From IMG/VR virus record IMGVR_UViG_3300031758_000630, positions 1 through 22,332 of that record: a DNA stretch of 22,332 bases; one strand, written 5' to 3'. This document shows, piece after piece, positions 1 through 19,646 of the stretch; the first letter of the stretch is position 1, and each line of letters begins with the position of its first letter. The notes under the pieces are model-generated. The model was not told the DNA's origin and did no database searches. It saw nothing but the letters and a program-made list of their open reading frames with translations. The DNA is from a virus. A program made the position numbers and the translations under genes.

Positions 1-2
1 CC

Positions 3-136
3 TAACAATTTGGTAACGCTCTGGCGTGTCGGCCTTGACAGCCGGAGAGAGAGAGGGTAGGCTACGCGCCGGCCAGTCGGCCATTGTAACGATTTGGTAA
101 CGGCTATTGCCCTTTCCGCCATAGAGAGAGTAGACT
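3..136 (+). promoter_or_regulatory. Tandem sigma-70/SigA-like promoters P1 and P2 with upstream direct repeats
   Basis: P1 has TTGACA at 35-40, a 17-nt GA-rich spacer and TAGGCT at 58-63. P2 has TTGCCC at 108-113, a 17-nt spacer that also ends in GAGAGAG, and TAGACT at 131-136. Each lies downstream of a near-identical 16-mer, TAACAATTTGGTAACG at 3-18 and TAACGATTTGGTAACG at 87-102 (one mismatch). The 16-mers look like binding sites for an activator or repressor, or like duplicated promoter units. Both promoters point at the rightward MoxR-VWA operon, which starts about 380-460 nt downstream. Promoter assignment is by consensus match only. Confidence 0.55.
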
Positions 137-160
137 ACTCCACCGCGAGCGCGGAAAGAG

Positions 161-340
161 CCTAATAAGCCTATTAGCCAGAGCCACTTAGGCTACTGCC
201 TAATAAGCCTGACAAGCACGCAGGGATAAGCCCAGATGTGGGCTAGGTTCGCAGGCTTATTAGCAACTAAGAGATTGGCAAGCCTGTTCTGCTACAACCA
301 ATACGAACTCTCTATGTTTATCTATCTCTATTAGTTGCTA
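161..340 (+). promoter_or_regulatory. Structured leader with competing stems upstream of the MoxR-VWA operon
   Basis: No gene is seen in 1-426. This stretch holds CCTAATAAGCCT twice (161-172 and 199-210). CTAATAAGCCTG at 200-211 is perfectly complementary to CAGGCTTATTAG at 252-263, giving a 12-bp stem. That stem encloses a second perfect hairpin, AGCCCA-GATG-TGGGCT (229-244). TAGCAACTAA at 261-270 is in turn complementary to TTAGTTGCTA at 331-340. The 161-172 copy could replace the 199-210 copy in the long stem, and 261-263 is shared between two stems, so the pairings compete. This fits a regulatory leader RNA or a protein-bound operator array. No known riboswitch class was recognised. Confidence 0.45.
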
Positions 341-468
341 GTGGTCGAATTGACCAAGCGCCCCATTTTTACTCTTTCCGCAAGCGTTCGCAGGTGGCTT
401 GGCTTAGGTTAATTTTAGGTGAACAAATGGGTAAACCCCTATTTAGTTGTCGGGTGATGTGCTTAGAA

Positions 469-498
469 TTGACCCGAGGCAACCGCCCCATTTATCTA
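469..498 (+). promoter_or_regulatory. Possible proximal promoter P3 of the MoxR-like gene
   Basis: TTGACC at 469-474 is followed after 18 nt by TATCTA at 493-498, 22 nt before the start codon at 521. The element sits in a degenerate direct repeat: GAATTGACC plus a nearby CGCCCCATTT occurs at about 347-368 and again at 467-493. Only the second copy has a plausible -10. The match is modest. Confidence 0.35.
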
Positions 499-520
499 CA
501 AGAAAGCGAGATTACCGCAG

Positions 521-1912
521 ATGTCCATAGCACTAATGATTGAGAGCGAGGTTGAGAATGGCAAAGAGCAAACTCTGGTCGTTCCAACAAACACCGAAGT
601 CCTTATGTTTCACCGCCTATCGAATGGTCAGCGAGGTCGTGGTCAGCGCTGGCAGTCAGTCAAGACGACTGATGAACTACCTATGACCTTTATCACTCAC
701 GAACCAAAGGCAGTCCTAATCAGCGCCCGAGATGTAGCAAGCGCAGAGATTGGGAATGTCACAGCCCTAGCCGTCAAGTTGCTTGCCGTAGTTAGCAAGC
801 CTGTCAATGAGCAGTTTCCTATCGCTCACGCTGAAATGGTCGGCGAGGTCGTTGAGCAACTAATGGCTGGCGACCCTGAACTGAACGCCTACATTAGTGA
901 CGGCAGACTACGCAATCCTATTACCTTTGCCCCTATCGGCAGTCCTGAATTGGAAACCGCTTTTTACCCTGTCCTAGCCCCAGAGGTTAGCAAGCCTGTT
1001 GAGGTAGCACCTGCCCCAACTGCCAAAGCGCCAATTCCTGCCCCAACCGCACAGAGCGCACAGGTCGAACTTGCTCGTATCCCAGACCGAAAGTGGGCTG
1101 ACGATTACATCAACCGCAAGATTGACGGCAAGATTACTGACTTTGACTTGCTTGATGTTGCCAAGACTAATAAGCAGAATGTCCTAATCCGAGGTCACGC
1201 TGGCTCGGGTAAGACAATGTGTGTGCTTGCTTGGGCAAGCGCTCGGGGATACCGCTACTACAACATCAGCGCCAATGTCGGCTTAGAACCAAGTCACCTA
1301 TTCGGCGCTTGGACACCTACCGAAACCGCAGGTGTCTTTAAGTGGCAAGACGGCGCTGTGACTGACTTGGTAAGACACGGCGGAGTGCTGTTGCTCAACG
1401 AAATTGACTTTATGCCAGAGCGAATTACCACAGTCCTATTTGGCTTGCTTGACGACAGGCGAGAAATCCAACTGCTCGAAAATGGTGGCGAGGTAATCAA
1501 GGCGCACCCTGACCTAGTTGTAATCGGCGACCACAACCCGAACTACCGAGGCAGTCGCCCAATGAACCAAGCGTGGAAAGACCGCTTTGCTCACAAGTTG
1601 GAGTTTGACTACGACAAGTCAATCGAAAAGAAACTTATTAAGAACGCCTCTCTGCTTGATGTAGCGCAGAAACTCCGTGACCAAGCGCACAAGGGCGAGA
1701 TTGACACCCCTATCTCTACCCGAGGTCTAATGGCATTTACCAAGAATGTTGAGAATGTCGGGCTTAACTACGCTATTAACTCTTACATCAACGGCTTTGC
1801 TGATGATGAACGAGAGGCAGTCAAGTTGGTCTTTGACACCGCCAAGTCTGGTATCGCTACCGACTTTGGTATCGAAATCGCAACCGCACCTATTCAGAGT
1901 GACGAGGTTTAA
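521..1912 (+). CDS. MoxR/CobS-like AAA+ ATPase
   Basis: A 463-residue AAA+ ATPase of the MoxR/CobS type, which uses ATP hydrolysis to remodel a partner, usually a VWA-domain protein. Residues 1-160 form an unassigned N-terminal domain. A Pro/Ala-rich linker (about 160-180) leads into the ATPase core: Walker A GHAGSGKT (225-232), Walker B LLLNEID (290-296), a sensor-1 Asn in DHNPNYRG (337-344), a probable arginine finger R355 in KDRF, and a sensor-2 region near R401. The next gene encodes the expected VWA partner and begins 4 nt after this stop. Start chosen at the first ATG; it has only a weak purine-rich ribosome site, and an in-frame ATG at 536 is the alternative. Phage copies are often labelled cobaltochelatase CobS. 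Nothing here shows cobalamin synthesis, so I keep the general remodelling ATPase call. Confidence 0.85.
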   Translation: MSIALMIESEVENGKEQTLVVPTNTEVLMFHRLSNGQRGRGQRWQSVKTTDELPMTFITHEPKAVLISARDVASAEIGNVTALAVKLLAVVSKPVNEQFPIAHAEMVGEVVEQLMAGDPELNAYISDGRLRNPITFAPIGSPELETAFYPVLAPEVSKPVEVAPAPTAKAPIPAPTAQSAQVELARIPDRKWADDYINRKIDGKITDFDLLDVAKTNKQNVLIRGHAGSGKTMCVLAWASARGYRYYNISANVGLEPSHLFGAWTPTETAGVFKWQDGAVTDLVRHGGVLLLNEIDFMPERITTVLFGLLDDRREIQLLENGGEVIKAHPDLVVIGDHNPNYRGSRPMNQAWKDRFAHKLEFDYDKSIEKKLIKNASLLDVAQKLRDQAHKGEIDTPISTRGLMAFTKNVENVGLNYAINSYINGFADDEREAVKLVFDTAKSGIATDFGIEIATAPIQSDEV

Positions 1913-1916
1913 TAAA

Positions 1917-3965
1917 ATGGCTAAACACATTCGCAATACAGGTGAGTATAACCACAACCTAGCGTGGCACAGGTGGTATGAGTGGCAGAACGAGAACGCT
2001 GACCTAATGGCAGACATAGGGTTCGACACCGAAACCATTCAGAAAGTCGCAAAGGAAACAGGGCGAGAGGTCGCCGAGATTTACCAAGAGCGCTCAATGC
2101 GCTACTACGAACTCAAAGAGCAGTTTAACCGAGAGGAATACGCTCGGCAGTCGCAAGACGGACAGCACCTAATCATCAGGAATAACAGCCTTGATAGCGC
2201 TTGCTCTATTTACCAGAAAGCAGACCGCATTTTAACTAACTTGCCTATTCAGGTATTTTTAAATGATGATGTGGCAAGCGCACCTGCTCACAATGACGGC
2301 AAGAATGTCACCTTTAACGCCACGCAGATTAAGGCGCTTGATGATGATACAGTCAGGTCGCTACACGGACTTAACTATCACGAACTAGCGCACCTGCTCT
2401 ACACCCCTCGTATCGGCACAGCGCTTGGCAAGTGGGTAATGGAAAAGGCTACCAAGACTGAAAAGCACACAGGTCGCAGGTTTAATCACGATACACAGCA
2501 GGTAGAGGACTACGACTACGAGTTTAAGGTTGAGGCGCTAGTTGAGGAACGCCGACTGCTTGCCTTTAACATCTTAGAGGACAGCCGAGCCGAGCGACTG
2601 CTGACAATCAAGTATCCAAGTGTCAAGCCGTTTCTAATCGCCACAGTCAGCGATTACATAGCCGACCACGCCGACACCCTCGCTGATAGTTTTGTTTTGC
2701 TTGCTGGTCGTATGTATCTTGACCGAGAACTACGAGCCTTATCAGCCCTGCTATACGCACAGAAACACGGCGAGGACAGGGCGAGGGCAATCTACGAACT
2801 GACCGCAGAGTATCGCAAACTTGTTTTCCCTCGGGATTACACTCGGGCAGAGCAACTAATCACACTCTTAGTAGCCCTATTACCAGAGGGCGCAGGAAAG
2901 CCTGACCCTCACGGCTGTCACGAACGCCCAATGATGAGGAACGGCAAGCCCCAGAGCGAGAAAGCCCAAGACGAAATCAACTCACAAGACCCCGAGGAAA
3001 ATGAAAAGGGTCTATTCCCCGAGGCTGGCACACAGGTCGGCACGAACACAGGCGAGATTGACAAAGACCACGCTCACTTTAACGAACACAGCGAGGCGCT
3101 TATCAAGAAAGCCCAAGAGGTCGCCGAGAGGGCTAAGGCTGATAAGCAACTCCAACAGAAAGTCCGTGACACAGTTGGCGCAATCGCTAGGGATAACTCA
3201 ACCAAGTCTATTTTAGGACAATCTCGATTTACGAGGGCTACGCCTGAACAGCGTGAGGTCACAGCAAGTCGCCTATTCGCACAAGAGTTGGAACGCCTAC
3301 GAATTGACTGCGACCCTCTATGGATACAGGACAAGCCGACAGGCAAACTCAATGTTGCTAAGGCTATGAACGCCGACATCAACGACATCAACAAATTATT
3401 TAATCGTTGGGAATTGGGTAATGACGACTACAACATAGAGGCTTGTATCCTTATGGACAGGTCAGGCTCTATGTGGTCTGAAATGGGCGCAGTCTGCCGT
3501 AGCGCTTGGGCAATCAAGAGGGCTGTTGAGAAAATCAACGGCAGAGTGTCGGTTATGACATTCAGCGATACATCACGCACCCTCATAGACGGCGATACCA
3601 AAGCAAAAGCAACCGAGGTGCTAATGGTCGAAAGTAGTGGTGGAACTGACCCGACCTACGCCCTTAAAGAAACCGAGCGCATAATGGGCTTATCAACTGC
3701 CAAGACAAAGTTGGTCTTTGTCCTGACTGACGGCGCATTTAATAGCAACGCAGATAAATCTATTAAAGCCCTTCGTGACAATGGAGTATTTACCTCTATC
3801 GTATTTTTAGCGAACGGCGATTGGATAGACAAAATCAAAGACGACCCTGCTCAAATCGCACAACTACAACACGGCGCTAACGACCTACAATTTATCGGCA
3901 ACCCTAACGACCTTGTTAAAGTTGCTAAGGGTGTAGTGCGCCACAACATCAAAGGAACGAGGTAA
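1917..3965 (+). CDS. CobT-like VWA-domain protein with HExxH metallopeptidase-like motif
   Basis: A 682-residue protein, the likely partner of the AAA+ ATPase just upstream. The C-terminal von Willebrand factor A domain (about 505-675) has a complete MIDAS metal site: D514-x-S516-x-S518, T577 in GGTDP and D605 in TDGAF. The N-terminal half carries H155-E-L-A-H159 and, about 60 residues on, LEDSRAE (220-226). This arrangement resembles zinc metallopeptidase-like domains fused to VWA modules, in which the downstream acidic residue can be the third ligand. A charged helical stretch (about 380-420) separates the halves. The start is ATG 1917, after GAGG at 1904-1907, inside the end of the ATPase gene. 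The open frame continues upstream to 1746, but that part overlaps the ATPase and lacks a ribosome site. Whether it is a protease or only a metal-binding scaffold cannot be read from sequence. Confidence 0.85.
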   Translation: MAKHIRNTGEYNHNLAWHRWYEWQNENADLMADIGFDTETIQKVAKETGREVAEIYQERSMRYYELKEQFNREEYARQSQDGQHLIIRNNSLDSACSIYQKADRILTNLPIQVFLNDDVASAPAHNDGKNVTFNATQIKALDDDTVRSLHGLNYHELAHLLYTPRIGTALGKWVMEKATKTEKHTGRRFNHDTQQVEDYDYEFKVEALVEERRLLAFNILEDSRAERLLTIKYPSVKPFLIATVSDYIADHADTLADSFVLLAGRMYLDRELRALSALLYAQKHGEDRARAIYELTAEYRKLVFPRDYTRAEQLITLLVALLPEGAGKPDPHGCHERPMMRNGKPQSEKAQDEINSQDPEENEKGLFPEAGTQVGTNTGEIDKDHAHFNEHSEALIKKAQEVAERAKADKQLQQKVRDTVGAIARDNSTKSILGQSRFTRATPEQREVTASRLFAQELERLRIDCDPLWIQDKPTGKLNVAKAMNADINDINKLFNRWELGNDDYNIEACILMDRSGSMWSEMGAVCRSAWAIKRAVEKINGRVSVMTFSDTSRTLIDGDTKAKATEVLMVESSGGTDPTYALKETERIMGLSTAKTKLVFVLTDGAFNSNADKSIKALRDNGVFTSIVFLANGDWIDKIKDDPAQIAQLQHGANDLQFIGNPNDLVKVAKGVVRHNIKGTR

Positions 3966-3967
3966 AA

Positions 3968-4180
3968 ATGGGCAAGAAACTAGCAGAGGATTACTGCTGT
4001 AAAGACTGTGGTGCTACCACAAGCACCCCTGTTAGCGAGTGTTGCGATTGGTGCTTGCTCACTTTGTATAGTGGCGAACATTCACCAATGCTTGACCTAG
4101 CACTACACCGATACAAAAGCGTAGCGGATTGGGTAAATGACCAGACCGACTACTCTGACGAGGAAACCGAGGATAACTAA
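3968..4180 (+). CDS. Small zinc-ribbon protein
   Basis: A 70-residue protein with two paired-cysteine knuckles, C11-x2-C14 and C26-x2-C29, plus extra cysteines C10 and C25. It ends in an acidic tail (DEETEDN). The pattern predicts one structural zinc. The start lies 2 nt after the VWA gene stop, with GGAACGAGG as a strong ribosome site, so it is almost certainly co-translated with the MoxR-VWA pair. It could be an adaptor or substrate-recognition subunit; that is inference from position only. No family was recognised. Confidence 0.7.
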   Translation: MGKKLAEDYCCKDCGATTSTPVSECCDWCLLTLYSGEHSPMLDLALHRYKSVADWVNDQTDYSDEETEDN

Positions 4181-4456
4181 ATGGATAACTACAAACCGCA
4201 GACAGTATCAGATTGGATAAAGATACTGAAAGACCTGAACCCTGACGAGATTGTTATTGGCTCGTTCTTTACGGCAGAGGACTTGGAGTTTTACCCTGAC
4301 CTAGACGAATACGCTGACGACTACGAGGCAATCACGCCCTCGCAGGAACTAATGGCAAAGGTCGCAGAGTGCTACGACAACTCTGACGAGGCTATGTTTC
4401 TATCAGAAACCTTGACAGGCTGGATAACCGAGAACTACGAGGGGGTGAAAGAATGA
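4181..4456 (+). CDS. Small acidic protein of unknown function
   Basis: A 91-residue, strongly acidic protein (many Asp and Glu, for example around 45-60 and the Glu-rich C-terminus) with a predicted helical N-terminus. ATG follows the previous stop directly, with GAGGA 8 nt upstream. It overlaps the next gene by the 4-nt ATGA junction, which suggests translational coupling. I do not recognise a family. The acidic composition, shared with the next gene, would suit a DNA mimic or a binding partner of a basic protein, but no residue pattern proves this. Confidence 0.65.
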   Translation: MDNYKPQTVSDWIKILKDLNPDEIVIGSFFTAEDLEFYPDLDEYADDYEAITPSQELMAKVAECYDNSDEAMFLSETLTGWITENYEGVKE

Positions 4457-4653
4457 GCGAACAGTTTAGAGTTGGATTTAGCAACGAGGAATACGGCTGG
4501 TATTATTTTAGCGCCGACAGCAAAGAGCAGGCTGAGGAACTAATTGAGCAACTCCAAGAGGGAATGATTGACCCCGAGGAACTGCCTGACTTTTACAAGA
4601 AAACGAACGGCGGTTCTGACGAGATTATCTCAGTAGTTGAGGAAATGAATTAG
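4453..4653 (+). CDS. Small acidic protein of unknown function
   Basis: A 66-residue acidic protein and the last gene of the operon. Start ATG lies in an ATGA overlap with the preceding gene and has an excellent ribosome site (GAGGGGGTG, about 7 nt upstream). It has aromatic residues in the N-terminal third (EYGWYYF) and a Glu-rich helix (about 25-40). The stop is followed 22 nt later by an intrinsic terminator, so the operon ends here. No family was recognised. Confidence 0.65.
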   Translation: MSEQFRVGFSNEEYGWYYFSADSKEQAEELIEQLQEGMIDPEELPDFYKKTNGGSDEIISVVEEMN

Positions 4654-4675
4654 AACTAAATACCAAAAAAGCATT

Positions 4676-4703
4676 AAGGCGGTCAGAAATGACCGCCTTT
4701 TTT
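4676..4703 (+). terminator. Intrinsic terminator of the rightward MoxR-VWA operon
   Basis: A perfect 10-bp stem AAGGCGGTCA (4676-4685) / TGACCGCCTT (4690-4699) closed by a GAAA tetraloop, with a run of T that extends to 4703 and A residues before the stem. It is a textbook rho-independent terminator 22 nt after the last gene of the operon. The A tract upstream could also give some activity in the opposite direction. Confidence 0.9.
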
Positions 4704-5064
4704 GCTACCTGCTACCCTGTCATACATCAAAGCGTAAGCACCGGCTGGCACTCGTAGAGCAAGAGTGCTAACGATTTAAATAGGTAATTAGGTATTAGCC
4801 AAGAAAACTAATAGCCACCTGAAACGAGGGCGTGGAACATCACGCGTGATTTTTCTTGCTGCGGCAGGGTAAGCATACACCTAAACTTTGAGAGCATTAA
4901 TAGGTAATTAGGTATTTAAATGCTTGCTGCGGCAGGAATAGCCTAGCGCTATGAAACTACCGAAGGCGGAGTTATTAAATACCGAATTAGGTATTAGCCA
5001 AGAGAACCCAGAGCCACCTGCGAACCACCCACCGACATTCACGCGGGTTGCGACACGCCGAGGT
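4704..5064. repeat. Non-coding repeat region, possible origin or control region
   Basis: No convincing gene lies between the terminator and the Pyr_excise gene. The region holds spaced direct repeats. The core AATTAGGTATT occurs at 4786, 4906 and 4985; the first and third copies extend into TAGCCAAGA and then a nearby AGCCACCTG. CTTGCTGCGGCAGG occurs perfectly at 4855-4868 and 4923-4936. There is also a perfect 12-bp palindrome ATCACGCGTGAT at 4839-4850, just inside an 8-bp inverted repeat CAAGAAAA / TTTTCTTG (4800-4807 and 4851-4858). The motif TATTAGCCA followed by AGCCAC also occurs in the 1-520 leader (about 172-187). Iteron-like spacing and local AT-richness suit a replication origin or a regulator-binding array; neither is shown. 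Confidence 0.5.
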
Positions 5065-5117
5065 TTGACTACTAGATGTAGTGGTATAGGCTAAGGCTAA
5101 CCACAAGATGTAGTGGT
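5065..5117 (+). promoter_or_regulatory. Promoter P4 with twin AGATGTAGTGGT operator-like repeats
   Basis: TTGACT (5065-5070), a 16-nt spacer and TAGGCT (5087-5092) form a promoter with the same -10 hexamer as P1. AGATGTAGTGGT occurs at 5074-5085, inside the spacer, and at 5106-5117, just after the expected start of transcription. Each copy overlaps a dyad: ACTAC-TAGAT-GTAGT (5068-5082) and ACCAC-N8-GTGGT (5100-5117). Two operators bracketing a -10 is a common repressor layout. It drives the Pyr_excise gene. Confidence 0.5.
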
Positions 5118-5138
5118 CATAGCAGAGAGGCATTTATC

Positions 5139-5561
5139 ATTCAGACTTTCTTGCCCTATCCCAACCTAGCAAAAACAGCACAAGTGCTGGACTATCGCAG
5201 GCTTGGTAAGCAGCGGATAGAAACATTACAGATACTCAACACCCTCACAGGCATAAGCCACGGCTGGCAGAACCACCCTGCGGTCAAGATGTGGCGAGGG
5301 AGTGAGATAGTCCTAGCCGACTACGGCATAGCGATGTGCGAGGAGTGGATAGCGAGAGGATACAGAGATACAACCCTGCCTCGCCTGCGAGAGATACAGG
5401 AGAACTTAGAGAACCAGACGAGAGAACTGCCGAGCTGGTGGGGAGAGCAGGCGCTACATATCTCGCACCAGAGCAACTTAATTCGCAAAGACCCTATTTT
5501 CTATGGGCAATTATTTAGTGGAGTGCCAGACAATCTGGAATACTACTGGCCTACGCATTAG
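5139..5561 (+). CDS. MSMEG_6728-type Pyr_excise family protein (putative pyrimidine dimer glycosylase)
   Basis: A protein of about 140 residues resembling the actinobacterial/phage MSMEG_6728 branch of the pyrimidine-dimer DNA glycosylase (endonuclease V-like) family, which would cut UV-damaged DNA. Family signatures visible: QTFLPYPNL at the N-terminus, DYRRLGKQRIETLQIL, NHPAVKMWRG, CEEWIARGYRD, HQSNLIRKDPIFY, and a Tyr-Trp-Pro near the C-terminus. The family normally begins MQTFLP. Here the matching codon is ATT at 5139, 8 nt after AGAGAGG, and no in-frame ATG or GTG exists back to the stop at 5079. TTG at 5151 is possible but would remove conserved residues and sits 20 nt from the ribosome site. 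I therefore annotate an ATT start. The glycosylase activity is inferred from the family only. Confidence 0.7.
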   Translation: MQTFLPYPNLAKTAQVLDYRRLGKQRIETLQILNTLTGISHGWQNHPAVKMWRGSEIVLADYGIAMCEEWIARGYRDTTLPRLREIQENLENQTRELPSWWGEQALHISHQSNLIRKDPIFYGQLFSGVPDNLEYYWPTH

Positions 5562-5592
5562 TGCCGGAAGGAAAAGAGAGAGAGAGAGAGAA

Positions 5593-5625
5593 CTTTTTGA
5601 GAGAGAGCCATTTCACTCAAAAAAG
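5593..5625. terminator. Weak inverted repeat in the convergent junction
   Basis: CTTTTTGAG (5593-5601) and CTCAAAAAAG (5616-5625) can pair with one bulge around a 14-nt loop, between the ends of the rightward Pyr_excise gene and the leftward 5640-7091 gene. Just before it lies an (AG)8 tract at 5575-5590. The stem is AT-rich, so a bidirectional terminator is only a possibility. Confidence 0.3.
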
Positions 5626-5639
5626 AGCGCTATTAGTAA

Positions 5640-7091
5640 CTAACTCTGCTCTGGATTAATCTGCTCAATAATGCTATTTGTCTGCTGTTCGTTTAGCCCA
5701 CCATTGGGCAATTCGTTAAGAACTTGCGCCCTATCTCCAAAGAGAGCAGAGAGAACTCCTGAACTCCCAGAGCGTTCAGCGGTGATTCTAATGGTCTCTT
5801 TTGACTGGTCTAACTTGTTAATTTGTTCCAGCATTTTAAAGAACCTGTCGATTTCTTGACCCACATTCGGGTCAGGATAACCACCATTTAAGTCCTCTGT
5901 AAACTTGGCGAATGCCACTCGCTGCCCTTGTATTTCAAGGAAAGCGTTGATTAGAGCCTTAAGTTGTTCCTTAGTCTTTAACTCCACAGGTAGGTTAAAA
6001 GCGCACACGCTATCAGGCTTGGCAGCAGGGCAAGTGTCCTTGACAAAACAGGTGTTACATTGACGCAGGCTCGTGCCATTAGAACGCGTGACCGGCACTT
6101 CTTTAAGGACATCAACGCCCTTGTCATCGGTCTCTATTACCCTATTAAAATCTATATTTAAGACGGGCAAAGTGGTAATTTCGTCTGGGTTTCGTGGATT
6201 AAGTTTCCGCATACCAGACCCCCTCTTAGTAACATCATTAGTAGGTGTTTCCGCTTTTTGTGGGGGTAGTGAATCATCACTATTAGTAACTAACTCCATT
6301 TTATTATTCCAAGCCTCTAACTGTTGATACGACCAAATTGCTAACCTAGATACCTCTACAGCGTCATCGGCTAATATTTTATCAAAGTCTAAGCCAGCCT
6401 GTTCGTATACAGCCTTGTATCTACTGCGGGCTTGTTCTTTCATACGCTTCGGGTAGCGAGTCAAGGTGTTGGCGTGCCACACAATAGTCTCGCCCCTCAT
6501 CATAGGCGACAGCCAAGCCAGCGTGCCAGCGGTTTTAAATGGCGAATTACGCATTAAATCGGGCTTTGCCATACCTACTGTGTGAAACTGTGTCCCGTGG
6601 CGCTCAGAATACAGTCTCATCTTTGCTGCCATACTAGGGTCTGTTTCGTATTCTGAGGCAGGAATTAGGACATTTAAATACCTAGTTGCTAGGCTTTCTA
6701 GGTCTCCGCCGTCATATACAACCGCCAGCTTCTCCTCCTGGACTTCTGCCCAGCACGACTGCCGCTGCTCTTCTTTGAAGCCCTCGGGCAAAAGTGGGTG
6801 CGACACCTCTGTAAATAGGGTAATCCTATCTAGGTTCTCCGCAATAAAAGTTTCATAGTCAGCGCTGAACTCAACCAGCTCTGATTCGGTCAGCGTAGCG
6901 GTGGCAGGGATTCCAGGATAGACATAAATATCGGTGTTTTCAGCAAAATAGTTGCTTAATAAATACTGTTTTGTCTTTGGCAAGCCGCGTTTAATTAATC
7001 CCCAGACGCTTACGCCCACCGCGGATGCGGCCGCCTTCTCGAGTATCTGTCGGTTGCTAGGTATCTCAGCACCTAAATATATTATTTTCAA
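5640..7091 (-). CDS. Unknown two-part protein: possible TIM-barrel-like N-terminus plus C-terminal cysteine cluster
   Basis: A 483-residue soluble protein. Residues 1-260 show alternating hydrophobic strands and helices (strand-like segments near 54-58, 89-94, 121-126, 168-173 and 190-205). They remind me of the beta/alpha barrels of phage tRNA-guanine-transglycosylase-like proteins, but no catalytic motif is certain. A low-complexity linker (about 265-300) leads to a four-cysteine cluster, C345-x2-C348-x5-C354-x8-C363, able to bind zinc or an Fe-S cluster. A helical tail follows, with GQRVAF and GSSGVLSALFG. The start is TTG in a TTGA overlap with the upstream HAD-like gene, with GGGAGA about 10 nt before it. 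It is the last gene of the leftward operon, after a nucleotidyltransferase and a HAD-like protein, which suggests a nucleotide-related pathway. Function unknown. Confidence 0.75.
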   Translation of the reverse strand: MKIIYLGAEIPSNRQILEKAAASAVGVSVWGLIKRGLPKTKQYLLSNYFAENTDIYVYPGIPATATLTESELVEFSADYETFIAENLDRITLFTEVSHPLLPEGFKEEQRQSCWAEVQEEKLAVVYDGGDLESLATRYLNVLIPASEYETDPSMAAKMRLYSERHGTQFHTVGMAKPDLMRNSPFKTAGTLAWLSPMMRGETIVWHANTLTRYPKRMKEQARSRYKAVYEQAGLDFDKILADDAVEVSRLAIWSYQQLEAWNNKMELVTNSDDSLPPQKAETPTNDVTKRGSGMRKLNPRNPDEITTLPVLNIDFNRVIETDDKGVDVLKEVPVTRSNGTSLRQCNTCFVKDTCPAAKPDSVCAFNLPVELKTKEQLKALINAFLEIQGQRVAFAKFTEDLNGGYPDPNVGQEIDRFFKMLEQINKLDQSKETIRITAERSGSSGVLSALFGDRAQVLNELPNGGLNEQQTNSIIEQINPEQS

Positions 7092-7543
7092 ACCCTTTTA
7101 TCTCCCATTAGTAGGTCTACCTGTCGGTCTAACTCACCTACGAGCTCATCCCACTTCTTCTTGCCATCCCGACCATCTGGGCGGAACTTAGCACTTAGGT
7201 ATATTGGGTGTAGGAATAATAGGGTTTTAACGCCCTTTTCTAATAATTGTTTAGCCAAGTCCACGTCGGCTGTGATAACCAGATGCACTGGCCCCTGGGC
7301 CTGCTGGTGCTGCACCTTGAGGATATCCTTGTCCTCATACTCACCTACAGTAGCGTTAGATATAAAGTTGTCTACCGATACTAATTTGTGTTCTTTACAC
7401 CAGCGAGCGGCTTCTTCTGCGTCATCGCACGCTATAGATACGATACCGTTTACATCAAGGGATTTGTAAAGCGAGATGCCCTCAAAGATTGGGACTTTGG
7501 TCTCTGAACGCATTACCCCGTCTAAAAATACAACTATTGCCAC
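7088..7543 (-). CDS. HAD-like protein lacking the nucleophilic aspartate
   Basis: A 151-residue protein whose opening VVFLDGV matches motif I of the HAD superfamily (hhDxDGV), but the first Asp, the nucleophile, is Phe (F6); D8 is kept. A downstream HLVITADVDLA segment (about 87-97), GVKTLLFLHP and FRPDGRDGKKKWDEL are consistent with later parts of a small HAD fold. A phosphatase needs the first Asp, so this protein is probably non-catalytic or acts differently. It overlaps the downstream 5640-7091 gene by TTGA and starts at ATG 16 nt after the nucleotidyltransferase gene. The frame is clearly coding; the HAD call is moderate. Confidence 0.65.
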   Translation of the reverse strand: MAIVVFLDGVMRSETKVPIFEGISLYKSLDVNGIVSIACDDAEEAARWCKEHKLVSVDNFISNATVGEYEDKDILKVQHQQAQGPVHLVITADVDLAKQLLEKGVKTLLFLHPIYLSAKFRPDGRDGKKKWDELVGELDRQVDLLMGDKRV

Positions 7544-7559
7544 GACTATTTATTTCTTT

Positions 7560-8450
7560 CTACTGGTTGTAGGTTGCTGCTCGCCTAATCAGCGTAGCGG
7601 CATCTGGTAAGTCCACTCCGTATGTGGAGCGCTGTGCTTCTGCGTCACGGGCTTCCATCTCTTTTTTTATAGCCCGAAGCGCATTGACTACGCCTAGTTT
7701 TTTACCTGATTGCCAGCGGTAATTGGCAAAGTCTGAATATCCCTTGCCATTTGGGCCGAAAGCATTAGCCCTGTTGCCGTGTATGTCTTCATACAGCGTG
7801 ATGGCCTGCGACGAAGCAATACGCATTTCTGAGCGAGCATTAGCCTTTACAGCATCGTTGGTTGCTTGGTCATATTTATTTCTAGCGGCTATGAACTTAG
7901 TCATAATATTAATTGCCGCTTCTCTGTCTTTATTAGAAAAAGCGTCAAACTCTGGGATTGCCTGTTGCCCCTGTAGTGATGGGGCTACTACCCACTCGTC
8001 ATCTAACAGTGCGTAGGCAGCGTATGGCTTGCTCTCGATAATATTTGCGTTAAGTATGGCAAAGAAGGTTAGTTCAAAGGTGTCTAGGAACAACTCGCTA
8101 ATAGGGTGCAGGTCTTGTCTAAAACCCTCGTTAATCTCATCGGCAATCTCTTTGTCACTAAAGCCTCGGAACTTATTATTTGAGGCGCGAAAGCGGGTGA
8201 AATCAATAGCGACTTGGCAGTCCAAGTCTCCCGGCTCTCTGTTAGCGGCCCACTGATACGAGACTCCGGAGCCGGTTAGCCAGGCAGTCATCCAACCATC
8301 AGCGCCAGTGTAGTTAGCGTTTAAATGGTTTAATAGCAACTGCAAAATAGCAGAACGAATTGAACTATCTAGTTTTCCGTTGCGGAACAGCCGCGGGTCT
8401 AGCGTGGATGACGGCTCACTAAAATAGGAGGTCTCTGTTTCTTGTAGCAA
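7560..8450 (-). CDS. Nucleotidyltransferase-fold protein
   Basis: A 296-residue protein with the signature of the DNA polymerase beta-like nucleotidyltransferase superfamily: G60-S61 in LTGSGVSYQW, then D75-L-D77 in REPGDLDCQVAIDF. The second half is largely helical (EFDAFSNKDREAAINIM onward). Such enzymes transfer a nucleotide to RNA, protein or small molecules; the substrate here is unknown. Translation starts at TTG 8450, right after the TAA of the previous gene, with GAGG 5 nt upstream. No closer in-frame ATG has a ribosome site. It is the first of three genes (with the HAD-like and barrel/cysteine proteins) that form the left end of the leftward transcript. Confidence 0.7.
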   Translation of the reverse strand: MLQETETSYFSEPSSTLDPRLFRNGKLDSSIRSAILQLLLNHLNANYTGADGWMTAWLTGSGVSYQWAANREPGDLDCQVAIDFTRFRASNNKFRGFSDKEIADEINEGFRQDLHPISELFLDTFELTFFAILNANIIESKPYAAYALLDDEWVVAPSLQGQQAIPEFDAFSNKDREAAINIMTKFIAARNKYDQATNDAVKANARSEMRIASSQAITLYEDIHGNRANAFGPNGKGYSDFANYRWQSGKKLGVVNALRAIKKEMEARDAEAQRSTYGVDLPDAATLIRRAATYNQ

Positions 8451-8654
8451 TTAATCCTCATCGTCTTCTTTTAACGCCTTTGGTTTTGGCGCTTCACGTC
8501 GTGCTGGTTTCTCGGGGTCGTCTGTAATTGGTGTAACATATCCACAAGCCGTGTGGGAATTAGCAAAGCGGTTTGCCATTAACAAGGTAAAGGTGTCATT
8601 GACACCATCTAGCTGCAATATAGCACCGCATTGGCAAGACATTTCAACAAACAT
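8451..8654 (-). CDS. Small Cys/His protein with charged tail
   Basis: A 67-residue protein with C7-x-C9 in the first ten residues and H34-x2-C37-G near the middle, a possible zinc site. It then has a Pro/Lys-rich linker and an acidic end (KEDDED). ATG 8654 has AGGA about 10 nt upstream. The TAA stop abuts the TTG start of the nucleotidyltransferase gene, so the two are probably co-translated. Family not recognised. Confidence 0.6.
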   Translation of the reverse strand: MFVEMSCQCGAILQLDGVNDTFTLLMANRFANSHTACGYVTPITDDPEKPARREAPKPKALKEDDED

Positions 8655-8674
8655 TTGTGGGCATCCTAACGCTA

Positions 8675-8941
8675 TTATTTGGCTTTTCGCCTATTAATAG
8701 CATCTCTCATACTGGCACTAATCCGCTGGCTATCCTCGACATAACCTTGCTTTATTTCTCGTAGAATCAAGTCAGCAATCTCCTGCGCTGTAACGACATC
8801 TAGGACCTGCTGGCAGGCGTGCTTGATGTCTAGGACGCTAGCCAGCCGCTCAGTCTCAAACGGCTGAGTGATATCGCTAACCGCTGTCCAAGACCCGTCC
8901 TGCTCTTGAACCATTAGAAAGGCAGCCTTGTAGTTAGACAT
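8675..8941 (-). CDS. Hypothetical protein
   Basis: An 88-residue soluble protein, mostly helical after an N-terminal stretch with FLMVQEQDGSW. The C-terminus is basic (INRRKAK). ATG shares its A with the TAA stop of the upstream gene (TAATG), a coupled junction. No family was recognised; coding status rests on gene packing and a normal amino-acid profile. Confidence 0.6.
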   Translation of the reverse strand: MSNYKAAFLMVQEQDGSWTAVSDITQPFETERLASVLDIKHACQQVLDVVTAQEIADLILREIKQGYVEDSQRISASMRDAINRRKAK

Positions 8942-9453
8942 TAGTTATACAGCCCGCCAGCCTCGTAGGCCTTCTTTTGGTTAAACATCTTTACAGGGCA
9001 GAAGTCGCAAAGGTAAACCTTTGGGCCGCTGCCGATAGTAGGCAGGCCAGCGTCTCTACGCTCTTTCTCAGTCTTAGGTGACAGCCACTTCTTCTCAGAC
9101 TTGTAGTCTGGGCACTGACCCTTAGGGCGCTGGTGGTCTCTGAAGCAGTTCATAGCGTCTTCAGCAAACTGGCTCTTGGTCTCGTAGAACTTGGTTCCAA
9201 ACGAGTTAAGTCCCGAGCCTACTCTGTCGTGGATTTGCTCGATTACGGCCTTCTTCATCTCTGGAGCCATCCAGATACCCTTTGGAACGTTCCACAGCAC
9301 GCCATAGTGGGTGTCGCTGTGACGCTCGGCCGCAATAGTTAGAAGGACGTCGCCAGGGTCTTCGTCAGCACCGGGCAGCTCCTCAATAGTCGAGCAGGTA
9401 CGGCAGACTAATAGGCGAAAATGGGGTTCTTGTTCAGCAAGTGGATTGTTCAT
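8941..9453 (-). CDS. Hypothetical cysteine/histidine-rich metal-binding protein
   Basis: A 170-residue protein with several metal-ligand pairs: C17-x2-C20, H45 and H49, C103-x3-H107-x6-C114, and C149-x2-C152. A central conserved-looking stretch includes VLWNVPKGIW. The number of ligands suggests two zinc sites, or a zinc and an Fe-S site. ATG 9453 has an excellent ribosome site (TAGGAG, 7 nt), and a 62-nt AT-rich gap precedes it, the longest gap nearby. A TAGGCT at 9480-9485 on this strand could be a -10, but no good -35 is present. The first GTAC of the window lies in this gene (9398). Family not recognised. Confidence 0.65.
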   Translation of the reverse strand: MNNPLAEQEPHFRLLVCRTCSTIEELPGADEDPGDVLLTIAAERHSDTHYGVLWNVPKGIWMAPEMKKAVIEQIHDRVGSGLNSFGTKFYETKSQFAEDAMNCFRDHQRPKGQCPDYKSEKKWLSPKTEKERRDAGLPTIGSGPKVYLCDFCPVKMFNQKKAYEAGGLYN

Positions 9454-9515
9454 ATTGTGCTCCTAACAGATAGACCGTCAGCCTATCACATAACTACAAA
9501 TAATAAAAATTAAAA

Positions 9516-10217
9516 CTAGGCTGCGCCTTGTCTTAATCCTTCCTGCAACTCGGCATTTCTTGAGGCTTTTGCAGCGGTTCTTTGAACGGCACGCTCACCT
9601 GGGGCGTCGCGGTAATTCTTACCCGCTGGGTCTCCCTTAGCAGTGCAGTCTGTGCAAGTAATCTCTGAGGTGTTGTTGTTACAACCCGGGGTAGCACAAC
9701 GCTGGCTGTCTAGGCCACTTCCGCCGCCGTATTGGGATATAACGCCAATAGTTGAGCGGTCTTTCTCTTCCTGAGACGTAGTGTTCTTTGTAATTCTTCC
9801 GCCGCCTTCTCTAGTCTTTTTGACTACATCTAGGCGCCTCTGGGCGGCTGCGGCTTCAGATAGCTGTCGTGATGTGGCTCTAGGTAGTGGGGCGTCATCG
9901 CCTTTAAATACTTTAGGGTCTTCGACGACGCCTTTTTCAATGTCTCTAGCCTGTGGCTTGTAAGGTGTCCAGTCTACTCGTCGTGTTCTAGACGCAAATG
10001 GGTCGCCTTCTTTTGCCATCATAGCCCTAAAGTCTGCCCTAGCCGATGACTCAATGTCCTCCTGGCTCTGACCACGGCGGCTTGGGTCCACGTTCTCAAT
10101 GAGGTCCTCGGACGCAACTAGAGTATTTTGCTTTTTCTTGTTACCCTTGGCAATTAGGTGGCGCTCGTACTCGCTAGGGGTTCCTCGCCTAGTCGCTGAA
10201 GTTTTTCTAACTGCCAT
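9516..10217 (-). CDS. Basic, mostly disordered protein with a zinc knuckle
   Basis: A 233-residue hydrophilic protein, very rich in Arg, Lys, Ala and Gly and likely unstructured over residues 1-165. A four-cysteine knuckle follows, C174-x4-C179-x8-C188-x2-C191, then a basic tail. Start ATG has AAGGAAAG 6 nt upstream. It belongs to a run of seven or eight small, low-complexity basic or Ala/Gly-rich proteins on this strand (9516-12513). Such proteins could be internal virion or DNA-condensing components; that is inference. Family not recognised. Confidence 0.6.
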   Translation of the reverse strand: MAVRKTSATRRGTPSEYERHLIAKGNKKKQNTLVASEDLIENVDPSRRGQSQEDIESSARADFRAMMAKEGDPFASRTRRVDWTPYKPQARDIEKGVVEDPKVFKGDDAPLPRATSRQLSEAAAAQRRLDVVKKTREGGGRITKNTTSQEEKDRSTIGVISQYGGGSGLDSQRCATPGCNNNTSEITCTDCTAKGDPAGKNYRDAPGERAVQRTAAKASRNAELQEGLRQGAA

Positions 10218-10261
10218 GATTACTTTCCTTGGTTATGTTTGCGCGATGCTTATTAAGTTTA

Positions 10262-10624
10262 TTACTTCTGAGCTGCTCTTTGTGCGGCAATTTTTTTTGC
10301 CATATAGAAACTCATTTTTTTCTTTGGTTTAGGTGGGGCTTGCATTGCTGCTATTTGAGTCGCGTTATCTTGGATGAATTGTTTAGCCGCCGCAGACTTC
10401 TCAGCGTCTTTTGCTTTATCTGCTCTAATTTCAGCAATTTCAGCCTTAGTATCGACTTCTTTTACGTTACCCGGCTTCGTTGCCGTATACCTGCCTGTAG
10501 CAGGGTCGGGGCTTAATTCGTCTAAAGTTACTCGTCTTGGTTTAGCAAAATCAAACCCGATGGAGTCAGCTGACCGTCGTGCTGACGCACTATCGGTGTT
10601 TAGCTGGGGCTCCTTGGGTTCCAC
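10262..10624 (-). CDS. Small basic, helical, Ala/Lys-rich protein
   Basis: A 120-residue protein with a long charged helix (about 60-95: EIAEIRADKAKDAEKSAAA) and a Lys-rich end containing PPKPKKK and MAKKIAAQRAAQK. The start is GTG 10624, 2 nt after the previous stop; the ribosome site is weak, so re-initiation is likely. Composition suggests a nucleic-acid-binding or virion protein. No family recognised, and start uncertain. Confidence 0.5.
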   Translation of the reverse strand: MEPKEPQLNTDSASARRSADSIGFDFAKPRRVTLDELSPDPATGRYTATKPGNVKEVDTKAEIAEIRADKAKDAEKSAAAKQFIQDNATQIAAMQAPPKPKKKMSFYMAKKIAAQRAAQK

Positions 10625-10626
10625 AA

Positions 10627-10833
10627 TTACTTGCCTGGGTTTACCTTGTTTGGGTCTTCGCTGTTTACAAAACCGTAGTTCATGTATGGGTGTAGACCCG
10701 CACGGTTTGCCTTTACGGTCTGGTCGCCTGCGCCAGGCTGTACCTGGGTGTTAGGGCGTGCCTTGCGGTACTTGCCGTCAGTTGCGCCTTCTAGTAGGCC
10801 CTGGTTCTCTGAACGTGACTGGTTTACTGCCAT
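10627..10833 (-). CDS. Small hydrophilic protein
   Basis: A 68-residue hydrophilic, Asn/Gly/Pro-rich protein with no predicted membrane segment and little predicted structure. ATG has a very good ribosome site, AAGGAG with 7-nt spacing. Its C-terminal PYMNYGFVNSEDPNK has the look of a short structural or peptide-like segment. No family recognised. Confidence 0.6.
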   Translation of the reverse strand: MAVNQSRSENQGLLEGATDGKYRKARPNTQVQPGAGDQTVKANRAGLHPYMNYGFVNSEDPNKVNPGK

Positions 10834-10843
10834 GATTTTCTCC

Positions 10844-11056
10844 TTACGCCATCCTGTTGGCGATTTGGTTTGCTGCCTTACGTCGTGAACAACTCTGGCA
10901 GAGGTCGGAATTTAATGCCTGAACTGGGTTTAAATACACTCCACAGTCTGGACATGGCTTGCTGCCGTTGTAGACAGTTTTGTCTAGGCCAGCTGGATAA
11001 GGCGTAGGATAAGCAACGCCGTCGCCTTCTGGGTCTATGTATTTTAACTGGGCCAT
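10844..11056 (-). CDS. Small zinc-ribbon protein
   Basis: A 70-residue protein with C35-x2-C38 and C53-x2-C56 (KPCPDCG and LCQSCSRRK), a simple zinc ribbon, after a Pro/Tyr-rich start. The ATG lacks a purine-rich ribosome site and is preceded by the AT-rich stretch AAAATATTTAA, so translation may depend on coupling to the upstream gene that ends 9 nt earlier. Function unknown. Confidence 0.55.
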   Translation of the reverse strand: MAQLKYIDPEGDGVAYPTPYPAGLDKTVYNGSKPCPDCGVYLNPVQALNSDLCQSCSRRKAANQIANRMA

Positions 11057-11065
11057 TTAAATATT

Positions 11066-11410
11066 TTACACTGTTCCTAGGGTATTGCGGCTCGTAGACT
11101 GAATAACATTTGGAACCTGCGAGTAATCGGTACGTTCCTGCGAGCGGCCCGAAACCTCGATGATATCCCTAACTCCGTAGGCTGATTTGATATAACCATA
11201 TTTTTTAGGGAACTTAGCTATTTGTGGCAGGTTAGGACGAACGTACTCCTGGACCTCTGCGGGTGTCATCCTGGCCACTTCCATGGCCTGGGTTAGTAAG
11301 CGCTCCTGATTGCTAGCGAACGGGCCAATGTACGCCTGCGGTGGGTACGCGGCGTACGGGTGTGCTTGCCATGGCCTGTTGCCATAGACACCGTTTGGAA
11401 TATTAGCCAC
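11066..11410 (-). CDS. Hypothetical Tyr/Pro-rich protein
   Basis: A 114-residue protein with a Tyr/Pro/Ala-rich first third (PYAAYPPQAY) and a helical middle containing MTPAEVQEYVRPNLPQI. Start GTG 11410 overlaps the stop of the upstream gene by 8 nt and has AGAGG 6 nt before it. The position inside the run of small low-complexity proteins suggests a shared role, possibly structural. No family recognised. Confidence 0.55.
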   Translation of the reverse strand: MANIPNGVYGNRPWQAHPYAAYPPQAYIGPFASNQERLLTQAMEVARMTPAEVQEYVRPNLPQIAKFPKKYGYIKSAYGVRDIIEVSGRSQERTDYSQVPNVIQSTSRNTLGTV

Positions 11411-11675
11411 CGTAGCCTCTACCTACCTGAAACTCTGCTACTTTTGCAACTGACTGGGATAGGTCTTCAGGGGCGGCTGCTTGCACTGGTTTGGGTGACG
11501 GCGCAGGCTTGTCTCCATCGCTGCTAACTGCTGCGCGGGTAATCATACGGCCTGTCGCGTTACCGGCGGTTTCTGTAAAGGCTGCGGTTCTAGACGCTCC
11601 CTGTGCAATCTTAGGCGCGGCTCCAACAATTCCTCGGCCTACTCCGGCTAGTATTGCTGCTATTGGTAATGCCAT
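11403..11675 (-). CDS. Ala/Gly-rich small protein, possibly amphipathic
   Basis: A 90-residue protein that opens with a hydrophobic, Gly-rich stretch (IAAILAGVGRGIVGAA) too polar and Gly-rich for a certain membrane helix. It continues with Ala/Thr/Gly repeats and ends in a Pro/Ala linker. ATG 11675 has AGAAAGG 8 nt upstream. It resembles its neighbour at 11690-11977 in composition. Such sequences occur in phage internal or membrane-active virion proteins, but I recognise no family. Confidence 0.55.
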   Translation of the reverse strand: MALPIAAILAGVGRGIVGAAPKIAQGASRTAAFTETAGNATGRMITRAAVSSDGDKPAPSPKPVQAAAPEDLSQSVAKVAEFQVGRGYGG

Positions 11676-11689
11676 TGGTTATTACCTTT

Positions 11690-11977
11690 CTAGGCGTTGT
11701 CGTCTTTTTTGCCGATGCCGTGTATAAAGTTCTGGGTTCTACCGATGGCTTCTTGCACTGCCCCAGTAATTGCTGGCTTTGCTTTCCTTATTCCAGATGC
11801 GGCTGCGTCATACGCCTGGCCTACTACTCGGTCTCTAGCACCACCAAAACTTGGTACACCAGCACCGCCGACTGCGGCTTGGGTAATCTCCCTACCCGTT
11901 CCGCCTTCTTTTGCCTTTTTAATTCCGGCTGTTACAGCTCCTGCGGCTGCGGCTGCGATATTTTTCTTAATTGGCAT
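11690..11977 (-). CDS. Ala/Gly-rich small protein with an internal pseudo-repeat
   Basis: A 95-residue basic protein. A segment near residues 13-23 (AGAVTAGIKKAK) resembles one near 58-66 (AAASGIRKAK), each followed by a Gly-containing helix, so the protein may consist of two related amphipathic units. It starts 2 nt after the preceding gene's TAA with a poor ribosome site (GGGTG), probably by re-initiation. Function unknown; a membrane-interacting or DNA-binding virion role is only a guess. Confidence 0.55.
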   Translation of the reverse strand: MPIKKNIAAAAAGAVTAGIKKAKEGGTGREITQAAVGGAGVPSFGGARDRVVGQAYDAAASGIRKAKPAITGAVQEAIGRTQNFIHGIGKKDDNA

Positions 11978-11979
11978 AC

Positions 11980-12513
11980 TTACACCCAGTTCGGTCTCAT
12001 GCTTCGCAACTGTGACTGTCGCTTGCTGTTTAGTTCATACGGCGCGTTAGATTTTACTGACGGCCCGGCCTTACCGTCATTAGGAAGGTGGGGGGCAGGG
12101 GCTAATCTAAAATCTGGTGTAAATCGTGGGGCAGCCATGCCTTTTCGAGCTGCTGACATCTGGCGCTTAATTCCTCGGTCCATAGATAGTTCGCGAGGTA
12201 GGTAATAGTCGTTGGGGTCAATACGCTCACCGCGGTGAACACCACGCTGGTATCCACGCTGGGTTGCTCGAACTTTTAGCCCGTTTAGTACCTGCTCAGA
12301 TACGCTGTTAGGGCGGCCACGGTCATCGCGGCGTGTGCGGATAGTTCCTAGGTAACCATCTGGGTATTCTGCAGATGGTTCGCGTCCCACACCCATGCGT
12401 AGGAAATCCATCTCGGAACGCGCGACAGGCGTACCACCGCCACCATAGTTGGTGTAAGTGCCATAAAGGCCATTAGCGCCTAGGGATTGTACGTTCTGAT
12501 GTGGTCCAGCCAT
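11980..12513 (-). CDS. Basic Gly/Arg-rich protein
   Basis: A 177-residue protein, Arg- and Gly-rich (for example TRRDDRGRPN and RGYQRGVHRGER), with little hydrophobic core and a C-terminal basic tail. The first ATG, 12513, has no ribosome site: the upstream 17 nt are AT-only in their centre. This is unusual next to genes with strong sites. The next in-frame ATG would remove 35 residues. First of the run of low-complexity proteins in transcription order, directly after the metallophosphoesterase. Family not recognised. Confidence 0.55.
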   Translation of the reverse strand: MAGPHQNVQSLGANGLYGTYTNYGGGGTPVARSEMDFLRMGVGREPSAEYPDGYLGTIRTRRDDRGRPNSVSEQVLNGLKVRATQRGYQRGVHRGERIDPNDYYLPRELSMDRGIKRQMSAARKGMAAPRFTPDFRLAPAPHLPNDGKAGPSVKSNAPYELNSKRQSQLRSMRPNWV

Positions 12514-12530
12514 ATCATAAGTTTATTAAT

Positions 12531-13559: not shown

Positions 13560-13780
13560 GTTCCTCTCATGTGGGCAACAAATGCCGTACGTTTAAATGG
13601 AATATCTGGGTAGTGTGACTTGATTAGATTTAGGGTTTGGGTCAGATTTAGATTTGGCTTACTTCGTAGGGAAGTAAAAACTTCTTGAAACTCCTGGTCT
13701 TGGCTTACTGCCCAAACACCTACAACACAGCCTTCTATCTCGGCTGATTTGGCTAACGCCTTTAGTTCATCGATTAGCAT
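13538..13780 (-). CDS. Hypothetical protein upstream of the phosphoesterase
   Basis: An 80-residue protein with a hydrophobic core (GCVVGVWAVSQD) and helices on both sides, ending in a Cys-containing tail (HMRGTCTCP). ATG has a good ribosome site (AAGGAG, 5 nt). It overlaps the metallophosphoesterase start by up to 22 nt, so the two are probably co-expressed. A 95-nt leader with a dyad (13807-13819) precedes it. No family recognised. Confidence 0.6.
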   Translation of the reverse strand: MLIDELKALAKSAEIEGCVVGVWAVSQDQEFQEVFTSLRSKPNLNLTQTLNLIKSHYPDIPFKRTAFVAHMRGTCTCPTA

Positions 13781-13806
13781 TTCTCTCCTTGTGGTTGCTA
13801 TCTACG

Positions 13807-13819
13807 GTTACACTGTAAC
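13807..13819. promoter_or_regulatory. Dyad GTTACA-C-TGTAAC upstream of the phosphoesterase pair
   Basis: A perfect 6-bp inverted repeat with one central base, 27 nt upstream of the start at 13780. A perfect TTGACA on the minus strand lies further up (within 13864-13870), but no good -10 follows at the right distance. The TTACA/TGTAA half-sites recur in front of the 13916-14236 gene (14265-14288), which suggests a shared regulator site. Confidence 0.35.
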
Positions 13820-13874
13820 ACACAACACCGCGAATTACCACAACTTGTCGAGACAAAATAATCGTGTCAAAAAC

Positions 13875-13900
13875 AAAAAACCCGCCATCTCTGGCGGGTT
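13875..13900 (-). terminator. Intrinsic terminator of the 13916-14236 gene
   Basis: Read on the minus strand, AACCCGCCA (13900-13892), loop GAGA, then TGGCGGGTT (13887-13879), followed by TTTTTT. A 9-bp GC-rich stem with a U tract, 16 nt after the stop of the 13916-14236 gene. Strong candidate. Confidence 0.9.
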
Positions 13901-13915
13901 AATTGCTAAGGCTAT

Positions 13916-14236: not shown

Positions 14237-14264
14237 GATTTTACCTCTTTGGCCTAAAGGTGGA

Positions 14265-14288: not shown

Positions 14289-14299
14289 GGGGTTAGCGC

Positions 14300-19645: not shown

Positions 19646-19646
19646 A

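Follow-up and report, generated by a model that had tools for sequence, protein, structure and literature searches.

Gene layout and word loss in the window

The DNA analysed here, referred to throughout as the window, is the 22,332-nucleotide stretch covering positions 1 to 22,332 of the IMG/VR virus record IMGVR_UViG_3300031758_000630. It belongs to a lineage of uncultured, probably actinobacterial phages, which has genes for WhiB, a family A DNA polymerase and a RecA-like protein and is distant kin of Streptomyces and Gordonia phages. The left part of the window holds a rightward gene block from which many short words, palindromic and other, are missing. This block and the leftward operon that it meets at a convergent junction are laid out as follows.

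1–520, + strand: non-coding leader upstream of the MoxR gene, beginning at an inverted-repeat arm; a homologous inverted repeat occurs in the related phages G009 and G004
160–5600, no strand: core restriction-site-free zone, the window's share of the rightward, putatively early block; ten tetramers absent or nearly so, synonymous shuffle z −11.5
521–1912, + strand: MoxR-like AAA+ ATPase gene (PF07728, E 1.5e-18)
1917–3965, + strand: von Willebrand A (VWA)/CobT-like gene (PF00092/PF13519; tblastn matches to Gordonia phage genes annotated CobT-like)
3968–4180, + strand: small, putatively early open reading frame (ORF) of 70 amino acids (ORF list; one ortholog, in L119)
4181–4456, + strand: small acidic, putatively early ORF of 91 amino acids, candidate anti-restriction protein (ORF list; ortholog in L119)
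4453–4653, + strand: small acidic, putatively early ORF of 66 amino acids (ORF list; ortholog in L119)
5151–5561, + strand: pyrimidine dimer DNA glycosylase-like gene, last of the rightward block (PF03013, E 6e-20)
5562–5639, no strand: convergent junction between the rightward block and the leftward DNA-metabolism operon (ORF layout)
5640–7091, − strand: first leftward gene, 483 amino acids, with DpdA-like/tRNA-guanine transglycosylase annotation in distant phages (phrog_887, E 3e-39)
5640–10215, no strand: graded tail, lacking ACGT and TGCA to 7.3 kb, GTAC to 9.4 kb and CATG to 10.2 kb (first occurrences and step fits)
5640–22102, − strand: leftward operon (DNA polymerase A, RecA-like, WhiB; Pfam), of ordinary palindrome content except for GATC

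GATC has no copy in the whole 22.3 kb window, where a local Markov model predicts 57 (P 2e-25). Six further palindromes are missing from the left and return in a graded order, with first occurrences at 5433 (AGCT), 5458 (ATAT), 7263 (ACGT), 7284 (TGCA), 9398 (GTAC) and 10215 (CATG); 13–31 copies of each would be expected per empty stretch under the same model (P 1e-6 to 5e-14). For the words named in the initial annotation the figures are 15–31 by the model (P 3e-7 to 5e-14) and 13–42 by extrapolation of the rate to the right. The initial annotation had reported this loss and located the first ACGT, GTAC and CATG exactly, misplaced the first TGCA at 7275, and called AGCT rare before 5433, where there is none at all. 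Its expectation of 28–40 copies per empty zone is somewhat high, although its conclusion of real depletion holds. Its list of depleted words was right but short, as ATAT, CCGG, CGCG, GGCC and several non-palindromic and interrupted words have to be added. Altogether, 10 of the 16 four-base palindromes are at or near zero in 160–5400; CCGG, CGCG and GGCC, some of which persist in the first 160 nt of the leader, are essentially lacking from about 160 to 4700. CTAG, TCGA and AATT, described as common throughout, are indeed present but not at undiminished frequency (observed/expected ratios, O/E, of 0.53, 0.32 and 0.53, respectively), so that they are partly spared, and GCGC and TTAA are fully spared in the core zone. 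Counting four-base palindromes against a Markov background, a check proposed with the initial annotation, reveals unequal depletion, with an O/E for the class of 0.32 in 160–5400 versus 0.82 elsewhere; non-palindromes within 160–5400 are at 1.04. GC content is similar across the window.

The loss extends to words of other classes and is not dictated by the encoded proteins. When synonymous codons are shuffled inside the five genes at 521–4653, with protein and codon usage held constant, 81 palindromes are observed versus 219 expected (z −11.5), compared with z −2.2 for the right-hand genes. Ten tetramers and 17 other words have zero copies in these five genes, the latter comprising the interrupted palindromes CCNGG, GGNCC, GCNGC, GANTC, GGNNCC, GTNNAC and CTNNAG, and the asymmetric words GCAGC, GACGC, GAGTC, GTCTC, GAAGA, CCATC, CAGTG, GGATG, GCATC and ACTGG; all 17 sit near expectation in most right-hand genes. 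Six-base sites are missing from the zone as well. By both the Markov and the shuffling measure, recognition words are rarer than composition and protein sequence allow. The same five genes are nearly devoid of CTTC/GAAG (2 observed, 32 expected), lack TTGAA (0 observed, 8 expected) and contain CCTC and ACGGC in excess.

The zone and its edges in related phages

A comparison with relatives, likewise proposed with the initial annotation, identified the same zone at the corresponding gene junction in nine further phages (G002, G004, G007, G008, G009, G013, G019, G020 and G029). Contig G001 represents the same phage as the window over 43.7 kb and has no GATC in those 43.7 kb. GATC is thus missing on the left, as stated initially, but not specifically there: its absence is genome-wide in this lineage and forms a tier separate from the block-limited depletion.

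In all ten phages, the depletion zone coincides with one rightward block, which judging from its gene content is probably expressed early. Annotated block genes encode MoxR, VWA, DUF932 and DUF1281-like proteins (the latter two noted in G004) next to small acidic ORFs; proteins of this last kind are numerous in the block (median isoelectric point 4.35 versus 6.88 for other small G009 proteins, p 6.5e-4). Such ORFs are typical of the block in relatives, and the 91-amino-acid ORF of the window is labelled a candidate anti-restriction gene. In G009, a complete relative with a circular assembly of 87.3 kb carrying tail-sheath and baseplate-like genes (named by reading of the sequences), the zone comprises the entire rightward block at 40.35–55.87 kb, flanked by leftward structural genes (terminase at 31.7–33.3 kb) and leftward DNA-metabolism genes.

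Step fits place the main change no more than 80 bp from the convergent junction in five phages, and 0.26–1.6 kb past it in the other five. Normalised depletion values stay around zero through MoxR/VWA as far as the convergent junction, are 0.3–0.6 over the following kilobase and have returned to 1 by 4–5 kb; as each phage's word set was picked from its MoxR/VWA stretch, the near-zero values there are low by construction, whereas the other block and flank values are not. At the divergent junction the change is immediate, from 1.18 to 0.62 in G009, 1.23 to 0.28 in G007 and 1.14 to 0.45 in G004. The depletion follows the rightward block, stepping sharply at either junction. Of the words named initially, a boundary inside the leftward operon, as then described, applies to ACGT/TGCA, GTAC and CATG only; in the window the main step falls at the convergent junction near 5.6 kb or about 1 kb beyond it.

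The set of spared words differs from phage to phage among the ten. AGCT, TGCA, GCNGC, CCNGG and GCATC are lost in every one of them, G008 additionally lacks AATT, and G002 and G003 (99.9% identical to each other) retain CATG and ACGT from the contig start. The MoxR genes of the window and G002 share 85% DNA identity, and yet all 15 CATG/ACGT sites of the G002 gene are gone in the window, 13 of them with unchanged amino acids, whereas 17 of G002's 25 sites for five other palindromes are kept. Such site-by-site synonymous loss between close relatives points to selection. Of the relatives at greater distance that still have this gene block, G027, G028 and G032 display moderate depletion, and G021–G024 and G031 weak or none. 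G015 has a zone for AGCT only, the rest of its loss being genome-wide: its 66.8 kb contain no CCGG, no GATC and one GGCC. Similarly, 63 kb of G008 hold five CCGG and no GATC.

The window itself starts about 520 bp upstream of MoxR at an inverted-repeat arm, and the G002 contig begins slightly further out, in the loop of the same repeat. Among 47 MoxR-bearing contigs ending within 10 kb upstream of the gene, 18 end no more than 0.8 kb from it. Most small genes of the G009 block are separated by similar inverted repeats, so assembly breaks can explain these contig ends; a search for contigs that extend across the left end of the window returned only the two that were already known. The initial assumption that the left end is an end of the molecule therefore finds no support, given that the G009 block runs about 10 kb further left and that the window stops at a repeat.

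Several features of the block are described here in their own right. Arrays of small acidic ORFs occupy 40.3–50.5 kb of G009 (oriented) and occur in similar form in G004, G013 and G020. Behind many of the G009 array ORFs lie a hairpin resembling an intrinsic terminator and a long, nearly perfect inverted repeat, whose outer arms are constant, GCCAACTCAACAAA...TTTGTTGAGTTGGC, and whose inner arms vary but remain complementary. The outer arms happen to match the integron attC core pattern; as a search turned up no tyrosine recombinase, an integron-like reading was rejected. GATC, which G009 otherwise avoids, recurs on the left side of its block, with 11 of 14 copies in intergenic repeat elements, as if functional there. 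Two or three direct repeats with 11-bp spacing, of the form GTTCACCTGTT, precede early genes, both in G009 block intergenic regions and in the leader of the window, where three 11-bp direct repeats lie near 400–440. We take them to resemble actinobacterial PHO boxes (PhoP binding), and the early genes might accordingly answer to host phosphate regulation. The pyrimidine dimer DNA glycosylase-like gene that closes the block perhaps suits life in sunlit water.

Enzyme specificity of the lost words

Words pooled across the ten phages were compared with restriction specificities. Of 422 scored asymmetric 5-mers, the three lowest are GCATC (0.05), GGATG (0.08) and CCATC (0.10), which we take to be the targets of SfaNI, FokI and BccI. 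Ten known type IIS words are recovered among the asymmetric 5-mers with an area under the curve of 0.83; the sites of FokI, SfaNI, BccI, BbvI and MboII are among those missing from the zone. The interrupted palindromes AGNCT and TGNCA, for which we know of no enzyme, are spared (1.0–1.6), and palindromes with a three-base gap have a median of 0.95. Six-base sites are depleted beyond their cores, at 0.28 versus 1.09 for XbaI with its spared core and 0.03 versus 0.47 for MfeI. Gapped palindromes, 5-mers and six-mers hence agree in that the depleted words are enzyme specificities while enzyme-free lookalikes are undepleted. The fit is imperfect, as GGTGA, ACTGG and GTNAC, presumably the sites of HphI, BsrI and MaeIII, are not low in the pool. 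Asymmetric words are depleted in sense and antisense orientation alike, indicating that the target is duplex DNA.

Judged from sequence, the word pattern is the mark that recognition of duplex DNA by a multitude of restriction enzymes would leave. Restriction avoidance confined to one part of the genome, the core of the initial interpretation, is well supported by these comparisons, in contrast to its identification of the left end with the molecule's entry end; we infer that restriction enzymes caused the depletion.

Candidate causes and known systems

The reading that we favour, with a probability of roughly 60%, is that selection purged the early block of the sites of many enzymes, this block being the only part inside the cell while those enzymes are active. 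Outside the block, these genomes contain about 40–70 copies per kb of the words that have all but vanished within it. Enzymes that reached the bulk while active would cut it at many places, so it can hardly be exposed to the same active enzymes; the simplest account would place it outside the cytoplasm, or out of reach, while they act. In the sequence of events proposed here, the rightward block would enter the cell first and be transcribed from leader and cassette promoters, and DNA entry would slow or pause near the convergent junction. Block products (many small acidic proteins, MoxR and the VWA protein) would neutralise restriction, and the remaining genome would then enter safely. The tail of 4–5 kb past the junction, and the longer GTAC and CATG tails, would indicate the length of DNA that comes in before protection is fully in place, with GTAC and CATG enzymes being fast, common or poorly neutralised. 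Systems that escape neutralisation would show in words missing or nearly missing from the whole genome, GATC in the window lineage and CCGG in G008 (5 in 63 kb). Block-first entry and the switching off of restriction by block genes are thus suggested by the pattern. We give even odds to the fuller proposition that the block is a restriction-proof entry segment, the sole exposed DNA until its own products disable many unrelated enzymes, and that the missing words record the restriction repertoire of each lineage's hosts.

A number of observations weigh against this interpretation. In G009, depletion is weakest (0.6) beside the divergent junction and reaches its maximum about 10 kb further in, which a plain model of first in, longest exposed does not predict, as the DNA that enters first should be cleanest at that junction if the end lies there; possibly accessory genes are cheaper to lose. 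Recent gene acquisition, considered for the same weak left part, was dismissed, since the GATC excess lies mostly in intergenic repeats and so is no evidence for it. Together with the steps at both junctions, the G009 gradient speaks against a simple decay from the window end and leaves entry order a deduction. Contig ends cluster at inverted repeats and G009 is circular, so the genome may be circularly permuted, and any physical end or entry direction is hypothetical. The zone-less relatives G021–G024 and G031, which share the gene block, require a different exposure history. No anti-restriction gene was recognised by homology. To our knowledge no enzyme recognises ATAT, or the window-depleted CTTC and TTGAA. 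A host search by one scan of genome contigs returned only a distant, 49%-identical Streptomyces locus.

Restriction could also be avoided without staged entry, a possibility that we consider doubtful. The whole genome would then enter, and only the block would be reachable or have to stay uncut, the rest being protected by modified bases, by proteins of the virion or by a compartment, or cuts elsewhere being tolerated once early genes act. This would agree with the transcription-unit junctions that bound the zone on both sides, with the room that the circular G009 assembly leaves for permuted genomes, and with the first leftward gene, annotated as DpdA-like (7-deazaguanine DNA modification) in a distant phage. 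The protein model is weak (predicted local distance difference test score, pLDDT, 53) but has an alternating beta/alpha N-terminal part and barrel-type PDB matches; these are many in Foldseek, with tRNA-guanine transglycosylase only at rank 39. DpdA-like modification was nonetheless rejected as the cause of the zone, because orthologs of the gene occur in all relatives, the zone-less ones equally, and a search for the preQ0-synthesis genes QueC and QueD found none. Moreover, there is no known basis for a shield over 70 kb that leaves out just one block, and since a single four-cutter has about 3 sites per kb, the bulk would be beyond repair once cut. Phage methyltransferases do not explain the zone either, as PF01555 occurs only in G009 and PF00145 only in the zone-less G014. 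The DpdA-like protein of 483 amino acids (5640–7091, − strand), whose label comes from a Streptomyces phage, is conserved, including its cysteine-rich C-terminal part, and its gene beside the junction may mark base modification.

Selection around a replication origin or another essential cis element in the MoxR leader, making nearby sites lethal, would account for the G009 minimum at MoxR/CobT beside the repeat-rich leader; it is improbable, since a distance effect would not end within 80 bp of the junction in five phages with differing leader-to-junction distances. More improbable still, and contradicted as far as the main effect goes, is a cause other than restriction, be it a general palindrome or hairpin effect, RNA-level selection or early-gene codon usage. 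Early genes may have special expression constraints, and the depleted ATAT and CTTC match no enzyme known to us, but asymmetric words are lost in both orientations, the depletion survives synonymous shuffling, enzyme-free interrupted palindromes are undepleted (median 0.95 at three-base spacing) and long perfect inverted repeats are common within the block. Mosaic origin, the main alternative named in the initial annotation, would have the left part newly acquired from a lineage with other restriction exposure, and the abrupt boundary near a gene-module junction could suggest as much. The block is nevertheless syntenic in all close relatives, each with different spared words, GC content is similar across the window, and the zone ends in a graded tail instead of a clean joint; with the synonymous, site-by-site loss relative to an 85%-identical gene, this rules mosaic origin out and leaves it a negligible probability.

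If block-first entry holds, sequence would suffice to reveal which genome part enters first and where entry pauses, as well as the restriction systems of an uncultured host population, and block-only versus genome-wide avoidance would separate the systems that a phage can switch off from those it cannot. A broad anti-restriction function is predicted among the small acidic proteins of the block or the MoxR/VWA pair. The old idea that phage DNA entering first ought to avoid restriction sites here takes the form of a strong, comparative and quantitative pattern.

Avoidance of type II sites across the whole genome is known from virulent phages (Rusinov 2018, PMC6286503; review PMC12707154), and the GATC loss of the window lineage is of the same kind. 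These sources treat entire genomes, whereas most words in the present phages are avoided in one block only. In conjugative plasmids, the leading region is transferred first and carries defence-countering genes (PMC11541004), and plasmid genomes avoid restriction targets (PMC10359461); unlike the situation proposed here, plasmid DNA enters single-stranded, and the cited plasmid literature yielded no leading region purged of this many site classes. Phage T7, whose early region enters first, lacks most GATC overall and exhibits no position effect (0.75 versus 0.74), and neither does Gordonia phage DalanDe (0.91–0.95), although its CobT-like gene block is present.

The likeness to first-step-transfer DNA of phage T5, drawn in the initial annotation, is apt. 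Like the block, this pre-early DNA is a stretch of early genes, about 10 kb long, with few restriction sites, and in the present phages, too, the depletion coincides with a putatively early gene block, its steps agreeing with the block boundaries in all ten. Efficient restriction of T5 by Cas9 requires targets in the first 4.5 kb, where cuts do the most harm (PMC8108384), and in a T5-like phage whose pre-early region has no EcoRI sites, EcoRI acts weakly (PMC13250531). The first 10.2 kb of the T5 record contain no GAATTC, GATATC, AAGCTT, GGATCC or CTGCAG. T5 differs in having only a slight tetramer deficit (palindrome O/E 0.83 versus 0.97), compared with about 25 words of several classes near zero here, and first entry and a terminal position are hypothetical for the present block. 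Nothing comparable at the tetramer level was found in the controls T5, T7 and DalanDe, nor did the open-access literature yield an earlier account of so many specificities being cleared from one early block. Whole-genome site avoidance and the site-poor first-step segment of T5 are already known; the breadth of specificities in one block, including type IIS, and the edge at a gene junction appear to be new. One gene block devoid of some two dozen specificities, with its edge fixed at a gene junction, goes far beyond the T5 case.

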